DNA of 20,647 bases from a virus: IMG/VR virus record IMGVR_UViG_3300020193_000174, positions 1 to 20,647 of that record; one strand, given 5' to 3'. Positions 9,051 through 13,032 of the stretch are shown one piece after another. Made by a program: the position numbers and the translations under genes. Under the pieces are notes generated by a model. The model made no database searches, was not told the origin of the DNA, and saw nothing but the letters and a program-made list of their open reading frames with translations. The first letter of the stretch is position 1, and each line of letters opens with the position of its first letter.

Positions 9051-9180
9051 AGAGACTTATGAAGAAGATGCAGATGAACATTTAGGTTGTCCATCCTATC
9101 CTAATTGTGATATTGATCCGTTAGGTTGTTTATCTCGAACAGATAAAGATGATATTGATTGGTATGGACAAAAAGAATAA
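9031..9180 (+). CDS. Very small acidic, cysteine-containing protein
   Basis: This 49-residue frame runs from ATG 9031 to TAA 9178-9180: MKPKKYKETYEEDADEHLGC and on to DDIDWYGQKE. Three cysteines (GCPSYPNC, LGC) and many acidic residues are present. There is no clear ribosome site, but it begins inside the preceding gene and fills the gap that would otherwise separate it from the HNH gene, consistent with coupled translation. Composition matches its neighbours. No family is recognised and the coding call is tentative. Confidence 0.45.
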   Translation: MKPKKYKETYEEDADEHLGCPSYPNCDIDPLGCLSRTDKDDIDWYGQKE

Positions 9181-9562
9181 ACCATATAATTCTAATAAAT
9201 GGACTGTTGCCCGATTTAATTCCTTTATCAAATCGGGCTTGCGTATTCTTTCTAACAAGTGGCCTCCTAAATATGAAATCCGAAAGGCCGCTTGGTTAGA
9301 ACGTGGATTTTATAAATGTGCAGGTTATCTGAAGAAAGCACATAAGGTTCCTGCTTCAATTGTAATAAAGGGAGTACGAAAGAACAATGTTTTTGTAGAC
9401 CATATTGTTCCCATCATTGATCCTAAAGTAGGGTTTGTAGATTGGAATACAGTGATCGAAAGAATGTTTTGTGAAAAAGAAAATTTACAAGTATTGTGCA
9501 AAAGTTGCCATGAAAGAAAAAGCAATGACGAACGAGCCATCGCTAGAACAACAAGTAGATAG
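9164..9562 (+). CDS. HNH endonuclease
   Basis: The protein has 132 residues if started at ATG 9164, or 137 from 9149. The C-terminal half holds an HNH/beta-beta-alpha-metal nuclease. A first cysteine sits in YKCAGYL, then VDHIVPI (D79, H80), ENLQVLC (N107, C112) and KSCHERK (C115, H116). Cysteine pairs would bind a structural zinc and H80 would activate water. The N-terminus is basic (KSGLRILSNKWPPKYEIRK). It lies between the exonuclease and a DnaQ-like nuclease, where T7 carries its junction-resolving endonuclease, so a role in recombination or DNA processing is plausible. A free-standing homing endonuclease is the alternative. Confidence 0.8.
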   Translation: MDKKNKPYNSNKWTVARFNSFIKSGLRILSNKWPPKYEIRKAAWLERGFYKCAGYLKKAHKVPASIVIKGVRKNNVFVDHIVPIIDPKVGFVDWNTVIERMFCEKENLQVLCKSCHERKSNDERAIARTTSR

Positions 9563-10550: not shown

Positions 10551-10712
10551 ATGAAAACATATTCTGTAAAGATTTTTGATACAGATAATAAGGAAATTTT
10601 TAGATTTGAAATAGATAGAGTTTTAGTAGAAGAAGAAGAGCGAACGGTCGAGGAAAAAGTAGATTATATTATAGCATCATTTCCAAGACATCTTGCAGAA
10701 GATTTGGATTAG
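10551..10712 (+). CDS. Small acidic unknown protein
   Basis: This 53-residue protein starts at ATG 10551, one base after the previous stop, with AAGGG just upstream. The N-terminal KTYSVKIFDTDNKEIFRFEIDRV looks like paired beta strands and the remainder is acidic and helical (EEEERTVEEKVDYIIASF). There are no cysteines or membrane segments. AT-rich composition resembles the other small accessory genes here. No function can be assigned. Confidence 0.55.
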   Translation: MKTYSVKIFDTDNKEIFRFEIDRVLVEEEERTVEEKVDYIIASFPRHLAEDLD

Positions 10713-10736
10713 TTTTACGTAAAAGAATGGTATAAA

Positions 10737-11558
10737 ATGAAACTAATTTATCTAATCAGCAGCCTTCGCAATCCCAATGTTCCTTTGCTCGCAAATGAAC
10801 TGCGTAAAGAGGGGTTTGAAGTGTTTGATAGTTGGTTTGCGCCGGGGCCACAGGCTGATGATTACTGGCGAGATTATACAAAACAGCGGGGTCTATCTTA
10901 TAAAGAAGCATTGAATGATTGGTCTGCCAAGCATGTTTTTGAATTTGATAAGTTTCATATTGATCGAAGTGACATTGCTGTTTTAGCCATGCCAGCGGGG
11001 AAATCTGGTTTTCTAGAATTAGGTTATATGTTAGGTAGTGGTAAACCAGGAATTATTTATTTCCCTGATTTAAAAACACTAGAACAGTTACCTGAAGATT
11101 GGAAATGGTTAACCGGTTTATATGAAGGTGAGGGTTCTATATCTTGTGGTAAAAATCGAAAAGGGGTATATTCACAATTTGTATTATCAATTACTTCTAC
11201 TGATTTTGATATAATTCAACGACTTTATCGTGTTTCAAAAGTAGGAAGGGTACAAGGTCCATATTTAAATCTGGGTAATAATTTAATTAAAAAACCTAAA
11301 AATTTAAAACCACAGTGGCTCTGGTCTGTTTATAAGTATGAAGATATATTATATGTCTTAAACGGTATGTGGAAAGATTTAGGTGAAAGAAGGAAAGCAC
11401 AAATCATTTCTGCTTTTAATAAGGTTGGTTTATCTGAAAAAGAAATTTTTGAGAAAGGAGAAAGTCCTTGGGAGTTACGTTATGATGTAATGCTCCAATT
11501 TGCTCAAACAGCTTTCTCTTATGACGACTTAATTAAAGAACTAGATAAGGTGAAATAG
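10737..11558 (+). CDS. Nucleoside 2-deoxyribosyltransferase interrupted by a LAGLIDADG domain
   Basis: The protein has 273 residues. Residues 1-111 are a nucleoside 2-deoxyribosyltransferase: YLISSLRNP start, GFEVFDSWFAPGPQADDYW, then HVFEFDKFHIDRSDIAVLAM and PAGKSGFLELGYMLGSGKPG with the conserved glutamate. The family's last segment appears only at 244-268 (PWELRYDVMLQFAQTAF). Between them lie about 130 residues with the single LAGLIDADG motif WLTGLYEGEGSI (124-135) and the family's ERRKAQI near 217-223. No intein splice residues (N-terminal Cys/Ser, C-terminal HN) are seen and the frame is continuous. Without the insert the enzyme would be about 145 residues, normal for the family. It would exchange bases between deoxynucleosides. 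Whether it is active with the insert is unknown. The insert is AT-rich. Confidence 0.85.
   Translation: MKLIYLISSLRNPNVPLLANELRKEGFEVFDSWFAPGPQADDYWRDYTKQRGLSYKEALNDWSAKHVFEFDKFHIDRSDIAVLAMPAGKSGFLELGYMLGSGKPGIIYFPDLKTLEQLPEDWKWLTGLYEGEGSISCGKNRKGVYSQFVLSITSTDFDIIQRLYRVSKVGRVQGPYLNLGNNLIKKPKNLKPQWLWSVYKYEDILYVLNGMWKDLGERRKAQIISAFNKVGLSEKEIFEKGESPWELRYDVMLQFAQTAFSYDDLIKELDKVK
11070..11459 (+). mobile_element. LAGLIDADG homing-endonuclease domain inserted in frame
   Basis: This covers residues ~112-241 of the host protein. WLTGLYEGEGSI is a LAGLIDADG helix, with the second E of EGE as a candidate metal ligand. It is followed by strands (QFVLSITSTDFDIIQRLYRV) and the QWLWSVYKYEDILYVL and LGERRKAQI helices typical of single-motif, dimer-forming members. 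A hand count of 11281-11340 gives 16 G/C in 60 bases, lower than the flanking enzyme parts. Borders are approximate. Confidence 0.75.
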
Positions 11559-11908
11559 TGGACACTCAAGATAAAAAGGCAGACAAGGGCAAGCCCATTG
11601 TTATTAATGGGGTGCTGTTGAAATTTCCACGGGCTATGATTGAAGTGGCAAAAGCTTCAGAAATTGGTTTGATTAAGTATGACGTACCGTTAGATGATAG
11701 GAACTATCAAGGTAGTAGCTATCTACGCTATCTTGATCCGATTGGTAGGCATTTGATTGGGCACACTTTCGATCCTGTCAACATCGAGAAGGGTGGTAAA
11801 CTTCCACCAGAGGGGGTGAAAGTATTGCACTTGGCACAAGCAGCTTGGTGTGCCTTGGCTGCTCTCGAAAATTATTTAATTGAACAGGAGAAAAATGTTA
11901 ATCCCTGA
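11558..11908 (+). CDS. dATP/dGTP diphosphohydrolase N-terminal-type protein
   Basis: The protein has 116 residues. The GTG start overlaps the previous TAG. The pattern KGKPIVINGVLLKFPRAM, EVAKASEIGLIKYDVP, NYQGSSYLRYLDPIGRHLIGH and LHLAQAAWCALAALENYL matches the short helical domain found in phages and named dATP/dGTP diphosphohydrolase N-terminal. That domain is fused to a MazG-type enzyme in phage MazZ. It would act on purine deoxynucleoside triphosphates, lowering dGTP or dATP. It occurs here alone, and a separate MazG-like protein is encoded at 5942-6283. Standalone copies are of uncertain activity. Its neighbours, deoxyribosyltransferase and GMP reductase, support a role in purine pool control. 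Confidence 0.7.
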   Translation: MDTQDKKADKGKPIVINGVLLKFPRAMIEVAKASEIGLIKYDVPLDDRNYQGSSYLRYLDPIGRHLIGHTFDPVNIEKGGKLPPEGVKVLHLAQAAWCALAALENYLIEQEKNVNP

Positions 11909-12170
11909 TTTAATTAACAGTTTATTTGAATTTTGTGGTGGTTTGTTTTTAGCATTTAATGTTTTTAAACTGTATAGGGACAAGAAAGTTCGTGGTGTTC
12001 ATTGGTTACCTACTTTGTTTTTTACAAGTTGGGGATTTTGGAATTTATTCTATTATCCACATCTTAACCAATGGTTAAGCTTCTTTGGTGGTATTTTTCT
12101 TGTTACTGTAAATGCTATTTGGTTAATGCAAATGATATATTATAGAGATAGAAATGGAAAAGAAGCTTGA
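11895..12170 (+). CDS. Three-helix membrane protein, SemiSWEET/PQ-loop-like
   Basis: The protein has 91 residues from ATG 11895, chosen for the AGGAG five bases upstream. It overlaps the previous gene by 14 bases. Three hydrophobic helices are visible: about 9-25 (SLFEFCGGLFLAFNVFKLY), 36-55 (HWLPTLFFTSWGFWNLFYY) and 62-82 (SFFGGIFLVTVNAIWLMQMIYY). A basic RDKKVRG loop follows the first helix. This layout, with a tryptophan-rich second helix and an Asn in the third, resembles SemiSWEET/PQ-loop small transporters. The proline-glutamine signature itself is replaced by FNVFK. It may move a small metabolite or be a generic membrane protein. GMP reductase overlaps its end by 17 bases. Confidence 0.6.
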   Translation: MLIPDLINSLFEFCGGLFLAFNVFKLYRDKKVRGVHWLPTLFFTSWGFWNLFYYPHLNQWLSFFGGIFLVTVNAIWLMQMIYYRDRNGKEA

Positions 12171-13032
12171 TTTTGATGACGTTCTAATTGTACCTCGTAT
12201 TTCAAATGTTTCTTCTAGAGCCGAAGTTGATGTAACATTAGGAAATCGAGACGGTGCACCAATCGTTCCTATTATTGCTGCTAATATGTATCATATCGGT
12301 ACGTTGAATGTAGCTAGTATTCTTTCAAAGTATGGTATATTAACAGCCCTGGTAAAGGGAGTTAAGACAACGCCTGAATTGTACGATTGGACCTTTGAAA
12401 CATTTGGAATGGATGAACCCTTGCTATCGAATAAGTTTATTTGTTTAGATGTAGCAAACGGTTATTTGACAAAGTTTCACGATAGGGTGAAAAGATGCCG
12501 TGATCTCTATCCTACTAGTGTCATCATGGCAGGTAATGTAGTTACACCAGAGGGAGTAGAGTGTCTTGTTAAAGCAGGTGCAGATATTATTAAAGTTGGT
12601 TTGGGAAGTGGCGGCGCGTGTACCACACGACTTAAATCGGGTGTGGGATACCCTCAACTTTCCGCAATTCTTGAGTGTTCCAAAGTCGCTAGAAGGTATG
12701 GGGCATTTATTTGCTCAGATGGTGGGCATCGTACTCCTGGCGATATTGTTAAATCTTTTGTTGGTGGGGCTGATTTTGTTATGCTTGGGGGTATGTTTGC
12801 TGGCACTGATGAAACCGGTACTACCTTTTATGGCAATGCTTCAAAACAGGCTCAAGGAACTTTGGAGAAATATCGTGCGGAGGAAGGACGAATACTTCAA
12901 GTCCCGTATCGAGGAAAGCTTGAAGATGTAGTGCAGGATATTCTAGGTGGTATTAGGTCAGCCTGTACCTATGTCGGGGCAAAAGACCTTTATGAGTTAA
13001 AGGAAAAAGCTACATTTGTGAGAGTTCAGTAG
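12154..13032 (+). CDS. guaC: GMP reductase (IMPDH/GMPR family)
   Basis: This 292-residue TIM-barrel enzyme is shorter than bacterial GuaC (about 346). DFDDVLIVP opens the protein. The catalytic loop is GSGGACTTRLKSGVGYPQ with C156. The phosphate-binding SDGGHRTPGD (188-197) and MLGGMFAGTDETG (210-222) follow, then YRAEEGR (240-246) and DILGGIRSACTYVGA. The glutamate of YRxxEG and the absence of CBS domains favour GMP reductase over IMP dehydrogenase. It would convert GMP with NADPH to IMP and ammonia, moving guanine into the adenine branch. Activity on dGMP is possible but unproven. It is the last gene of the rightward block, followed by the terminator at 13110-13136. Confidence 0.88.
   Translation: MEKKLDFDDVLIVPRISNVSSRAEVDVTLGNRDGAPIVPIIAANMYHIGTLNVASILSKYGILTALVKGVKTTPELYDWTFETFGMDEPLLSNKFICLDVANGYLTKFHDRVKRCRDLYPTSVIMAGNVVTPEGVECLVKAGADIIKVGLGSGGACTTRLKSGVGYPQLSAILECSKVARRYGAFICSDGGHRTPGDIVKSFVGGADFVMLGGMFAGTDETGTTFYGNASKQAQGTLEKYRAEEGRILQVPYRGKLEDVVQDILGGIRSACTYVGAKDLYELKEKATFVRVQ

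Follow-up and report, generated by a model that had tools for sequence, protein, structure and literature searches.

The usual view is that a homing endonuclease (HE) gene has to reside in a self-splicing intron or an intein, or sit between genes, if the gene it targets is to be spared. In nine mycobacteriophage methylases of the Taj_79 and Akhila_67 type, an unspliced LAGLIDADG domain lies in frame outside the intein and is referred to as a 'second homing endonuclease' (Gosselin et al. 2023, PMC9957025). When Taj_79 was checked, it was found to be one continuous ORF in which N6_N4_Mtase is combined with an internal, in-frame Pfam LAGLIDADG_1 match at residues 63-160. ShiLan elements carry an HNH nuclease that is read in a different frame from that of the host gene (Arsenault et al. 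2025, PMC11855218). In phage Aeh1, the nrdA/mobE genes-in-pieces arrangement places a homing gene within a phage nucleotide-metabolism gene with no splicing element and with a functional host enzyme (reviewed in PMC2988022), and in the rps3-LAGLIDADG fusions of fungal mitochondria a LAGLIDADG sequence is in frame with the host protein gene (PMC7902536). A preliminary description of the locus analysed here regarded the in-frame insertion of a homing nuclease without splicing as an unusual mobile strategy; with the Taj_79-type methylases and the out-of-frame ShiLan equivalents on record (PMC9957025, PMC11855218), such a strategy is uncommon but not unprecedented. A literature search found no earlier report of an in-frame, unspliced LAGLIDADG domain in an enzyme of the nucleoside deoxyribosyltransferase (NDT) class.

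Results

Organisation of the fusion gene

The window (the whole 20,647-nt stretch of viral DNA that was analysed) contains a plus-strand ORF at 10737-11558 that is a phage nucleoside deoxyribosyltransferase/N-glycosidase-like protein, here termed NDT, with an internal single-motif LAGLIDADG HE. ORF reading confirmed a single uninterrupted frame of 273 aa, continuous at both joins, as had been stated in the preliminary description. The features of this ORF and of the gene that follows it are:

10737..11069, plus strand: NDT/N-glycosidase-like N-terminal part, residues 1-111, containing Y5, S9-N12, D71 and the ELGY motif (E94); phrog_12607 E 2e-13, 46-65% identity to uninterrupted homologues, AlphaFold2 pLDDT 89-98
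11070..11477, plus strand: in-frame LAGLIDADG HE insert, residues 112-247 at most; phrog_5046, Pfam, AlphaFold2, Foldseek and homologue loop lengths
11106..11135, plus strand: LAGLIDADG motif WLTGLYEGEG, residues 124-133, including the acidic residue at the catalytic position; family conservation
11478..11555, plus strand: NDT C-terminal part (RYDVMLQFAQTAF...), residues 248-273; aligns in 39/39 homologues tested, match in contig L204, AlphaFold2 pLDDT 80-96
11556..11560, plus strand: TAG stop codon of the fusion overlapping the GTG start codon of the next gene (TAGTG); ORF reading
11558..11908, plus strand: next gene, a dATP/dGTP diphosphohydrolase N-terminal-like protein; Pfam PF18909 E 5.6e-10

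The TAGTG overlap suggests that translation of the fusion and of the next gene is coupled, and such coupling would be expected to select for an open frame across the insert. The GC content of the insert (0.297) is below that of the flanking NDT parts (0.399 and 0.362), so the dip reported previously is real, but it is not specific to the insert, since the upstream coding stretch at 10551-10709 is equally low (0.289); low GC was consequently dropped as proof of a recent arrival. Elsewhere in the window, an HNH endonuclease-like ORF of 137 aa at 9149-9562 (phrog_3106, E 6e-18), located about 1.2 kb upstream of the NDT gene, is probably a second, freestanding homing-type gene, and an IMP dehydrogenase/GMP reductase family gene at 12154-13032 (Pfam, E 2.8e-59) lies in a common nucleotide-metabolism cluster with the NDT.

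The host enzyme and the insertion site

The identification of residues 1-111 as a phage NDT was borne out by the match to family phrog_12607 (E 2e-13) and by an identity of 46-65% to uninterrupted viral homologues, including those of phages NMeng1 and ParKuw1. Profile matches of this family to MilB and to the L. leichmannii-type NDT were weak, and the Foldseek matches (7m5h, MilB, BcmB and DNPH1) included none below E 0.001. The family is weakly predicted to lie near the MilB/BcmB-type CMP N-glycosidases, DNPH1 and the L. leichmannii-type NDT, and 'NDT' is used here as a label for the predicted superfamily. At the other end of the ORF, the C-terminal NDT helices (RYDVMLQFA) are recognisable in residues 248-273; the C-terminal half first placed at about residues 244-273 is therefore present, although it begins at about residue 248 rather than 244.

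The proposed comparison with uninterrupted phage homologues was extended to about 85 NDT relatives from viral contigs and phages. This HE was found in none of them. The homologues have 20-24 residues (18 in a single outlier) between the catalytic-type Glu and R(W/Y)DVM, compared with 154 in the fusion, giving a net insert of 130-134 aa, in agreement with the approximately 130 residues estimated earlier. The insertion site is the loop that leads into the conserved R(W/Y)DVM helix, and its length varies by several residues among homologues (for example, ILLEDPDRWDVM, ILFDEEPERWDVM, LMPQVVESELRWDVM and LFPEVSEEDQRWDVM). The join can be drawn between FPD and RYDVM, or with a few host residues remaining (e.g., SPWEL), and its ends are uncertain by a few codons because there is no closer insert-free relative. 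As the default MAFFT alignment misplaces the NDT C-terminus, a generalized-affine alignment or a chosen subset was used instead.

The fusion is a single sequence: no second NDT with an insert was found among the loci examined, and a DNA-level search for the insert in phages gave no match. As the 20.6-kb record is one contig from an uncultivated virus, with the locus represented once, an HE gene could have been joined chimerically into an NDT gene during metagenomic assembly. However, both joins are in frame, the AT-rich insert contains no stop codon, and the gene cluster of a related virus (contig L204, described below) contains the HE family too, making an artefact of this kind highly improbable.

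The N-terminal part of the fusion NDT keeps 41 of the 47 positions that are conserved in at least 80% of homologues (homologue median 0.94, lowest 0.83), and the C-terminal part keeps 9 of 11 strongly conserved positions, with E94, D71, D250 and M252 all retained. Y249 and L253, which were scored as changes in the fusion, are also present in the intact NDT of L204. Near the catalytic Glu, the residues that are otherwise invariant in the phage subfamily are not all kept: residue 92 (window 11010-11012), two residues before the catalytic-type Glu94, is Phe in the fusion and His in every other inspected homologue with the motif. G8, which is 97% conserved among homologues, is lost as well. Both the NDT and the HE part appear to be under constraint, and the H92F change casts doubt on NDT catalysis, which may be impaired. 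The loss of His92 and G8 would fit an NDT that is inactivated or decaying, in which case the fusion would be kept only to express the nuclease and to carry ribosomes as far as the TAGTG shared with the diphosphohydrolase gene, an overlap that would favour an open frame regardless of NDT activity. Such decay was judged unlikely, since the NDT parts contain neither a stop codon nor a frameshift, most strongly conserved positions (including the four residues named above) are kept, the residues Y249 and L253 are shared with an intact enzyme and hence are not signs of decay, and the C-terminal helices are well preserved although they would be dispensable in a dead enzyme.

The inserted endonuclease

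Residues ~112-247 match single-motif LAGLIDADG nucleases (phrog_5046, E 3.5e-8), and Pfam LAGLIDADG_1 matched the insert alone at E 6e-4, just under its curated cut-off. Residues W124, G127, L128, E130, G131, E132 and G133 are conserved in 99-100% of the 71 HE family members, and the insert also retains D156, D158, R218 and R219. A single-motif LAGLIDADG domain normally acts as a homodimer. In other loci, tandem single-motif LAGLIDADG copies were seen within one ORF (L160:2072-2962, L189:2000-2992 and L191:2429-3174), an arrangement that resembles the step from a homodimeric to a monomeric two-motif enzyme.

Structure prediction had been suggested as a check. With the whole fusion, AlphaFold2 gave pLDDT values of 89-98 in blocks over residues 1-110 and of 80-96 in blocks over residues 251-270; the insert itself was modelled with low confidence, since few HE sequences entered the joint alignment. 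Modelled alone (68 sequences), the insert reached a pLDDT of 88 and showed the helix-strand-strand-helix-strand-strand-helix order of LAGLIDADG enzymes, so that the motif helix and the alpha-beta-beta-alpha-beta-beta-alpha fold are both present in the model. The top Foldseek matches of this model were I-OnuI variants and other LAGLIDADG nucleases, including the shorter I-MsoI and I-CvuI (E ~1e-5 to 1e-4). AlphaFold2 thus predicted, in each case with confidence, an NDT fold on either side and a LAGLIDADG fold for the insert when modelled by itself, corroborating the earlier assignment of the middle residues to a single-motif LAGLIDADG nuclease, and the host fold is predicted to be intact with the HE as a separate domain (of high confidence alone and of low confidence in the joint model).

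The nearest relatives of the HE are encoded by freestanding genes and span 110-150 aa, and the relatives found were mostly freestanding ORFs, among them those of cyanophage NATL2A-133, Rhizobium phage RHph_N3_13 and L204. These three belong to the HE family of the insert and have an equal domain length; unlike the insert, they possess their own start and stop codons and are intergenic. In NATL2A-133 the freestanding HE opens with MQTLEP..., aligned with LKTLEQ... at the start of the insert, and this one alignment suggests that a freestanding HE gene may have lost its start codon upon capture. A scan of viral contigs for the HE using the single insert sequence gave no match, whereas alignment-based scans of viral contigs recovered relatives. 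A genome scan for the HE yielded five MAG loci, none of which (0/5) read as an enzyme fusion. With tblastn, related sequences were found in Rhodobacter phages that are DNA methylases by annotation, irrespective of frame. Two viral m5C-type methylase genes (L113:2002-3399 and L120:1975-3498) carry a LAGLIDADG of the insert family in an alternate frame with the methylase frame open, a ShiLan-like arrangement with LAGLIDADG in place of HNH; they had been considered as in-frame methylase insertions and were rejected as such once all frames were read.

Tests for splicing elements

No Hint/intein domain was found in Pfam scans. The insert has neither Cys, Ser nor Thr at its start nor HN at its end, in keeping with the preliminary description, in which the intein-type Cys/Ser start, the HN end and a splicing domain had all been noted as absent. 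Inteins nonetheless resemble the insert in lying in frame within an enzyme and in carrying a LAGLIDADG nuclease, and a highly reduced or unrecognised intein, or another protein-splicing element, might excise the insert after translation. Given the missing Hint match and terminal residues, the Arg at the +1 position where a nucleophile is required, and an HE domain that fills the insert (about 110-120 of 130-136 aa), this is hardly credible.

Group I introns also house HE genes of this general kind, and some of their ORFs are known to read in frame from the upstream exon. The insert might then be a small intron, of group I or another class, with an ORF that reads through into the exon on either side, and RNA splicing would restore the NDT. 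A group I core takes up 200 nt or more. The NDT halves are about 400 nt apart (390-402 nt net), of which about 330 nt code for conserved HE residues, leaving too little space for such a core. The covariance search for a group I core that had been proposed gave no Rfam intron match across 10700-11950 even at E 10, but the same search missed known phage introns, as in Rfam 15 controls at the gathering threshold T4 td/nrdB (L186, T4 134000-150000) and the LittleE capsid intron (L012) were not detected. The Rfam negative is consequently weak here and the weight is carried by the length argument, on which an intron is very unlikely. Rfam negatives for ORF-carrying phage introns, to judge from td/nrdB and LittleE, mean little in general.

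A related virus with separate genes

Contig L204, from a related virus, was located via the exonuclease gene of the window. In one gene cluster it carries an intact NDT, a dATP/dGTP diphosphohydrolase of the window's family and a freestanding HE of the insert's family. The GTG start codon of this HE overlaps the diphosphohydrolase stop codon and its end adjoins the exonuclease gene, while the NDT has RYDVMLQFA without an insert. Counterparts of the cluster neighbours are present in the window, where the HE is located inside the NDT. Local capture of the HE from such a gene cluster is plausible, with L204 itself not the direct donor, since the two HEs share 28% identity. The intact NDT of L204 (L204:1615-2445) has at its N-terminus, in frame, a domain of the Endonuclease VII type (Pfam, E 2.7e-21), which makes two kinds of nuclease joined to this enzyme.

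Discussion

Three options had been put forward at the outset, namely a two-in-one protein with a looped-out nuclease, an RNA intron and an inactivated gene. The two-in-one protein fits best, as both NDT halves are conserved and confidently predicted and the loop is variable in length; the intron is disfavoured for lack of space for a group I core, and inactivation was kept as an option in view of the lost His92. The preferred explanation, to which a probability of about 0.6 is assigned, is that a freestanding HE gene was captured in frame by the variable NDT loop, is translated through and has been retained as a second, unspliced domain. A formerly freestanding single-motif LAGLIDADG homing gene, minus its start and stop codons, would now occupy the length-variable loop, with ribosomes starting at the NDT start codon, passing through the nuclease and finishing at the end of the NDT. 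The nuclease would remain unspliced and form a domain of its own that stands out from the NDT fold. The homing domain would borrow the promoter and ribosome-binding site of the host gene and, if the nuclease is active, may spread when co-infecting phages bring in NDT alleles that lack the insert: these would be cut, and repair would copy the insert into them.

On a wider view, LAGLIDADG nucleases may home without splicing, spreading as permanent, tolerated domains of still-active phage nucleotide enzymes, and may have done so in no fewer than two enzyme classes, methylases and NDTs, through separate events; this generalisation is offered tentatively, at somewhat less than even odds. If it is true, homing genes can lodge in frame in loops and thereby need neither introns nor inteins, and a nuclease carried openly within its host enzyme would be a further solution to the sparing of the target gene. 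Two observations, the unrelated host enzyme and the freestanding member of the HE family in the matching gene cluster of the related virus L204, suggest a repeatable route by which tolerant loops capture freestanding genes.

Among the described systems, the rps3 fusions of fungal mitochondria differ in that the host gene lies in a group I intron of rnl, the HE is of a different lineage and the arrangement is described as fused rather than inserted into an internal loop. Aeh1 nrdA shares with the window the placement of a homing gene in a nucleotide-metabolism gene without a splicing element, but is split into separate polypeptides, whereas the fusion is one continuous polypeptide. ShiLan elements likewise combine a homing-type insertion with an open host frame, no intein or intron signature and a host protein predicted to be tolerant; their nuclease frame differs from that of the host, whereas the LAGLIDADG of the window is in the NDT frame. 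The Taj_79 type shares with the fusion a single-motif LAGLIDADG (~100-139 aa) that is read in the frame of its phage host enzyme, lies apart from any intein and is missing from some homologues, and its HE forms a domain of its own in the published AlphaFold model (PMC9957025). A shared frame, the lack of a protein-splicing domain, the existence of insert-free homologues and a host fold predicted to be intact are features of the Taj_79 type that are found in the fusion. The two differ in the host, an N6/N4 DNA methylase in one case and an NDT in the other, in HEs that are only distantly related (24% over 63 aa) and in number, with nine sequences of the Taj_79 type and one NDT fusion. The arrangement is therefore known already in one phage methylase family, the new element being an unrelated nucleotide-metabolism enzyme as the host, and the window presents a thinly documented arrangement of a known kind in an NDT.
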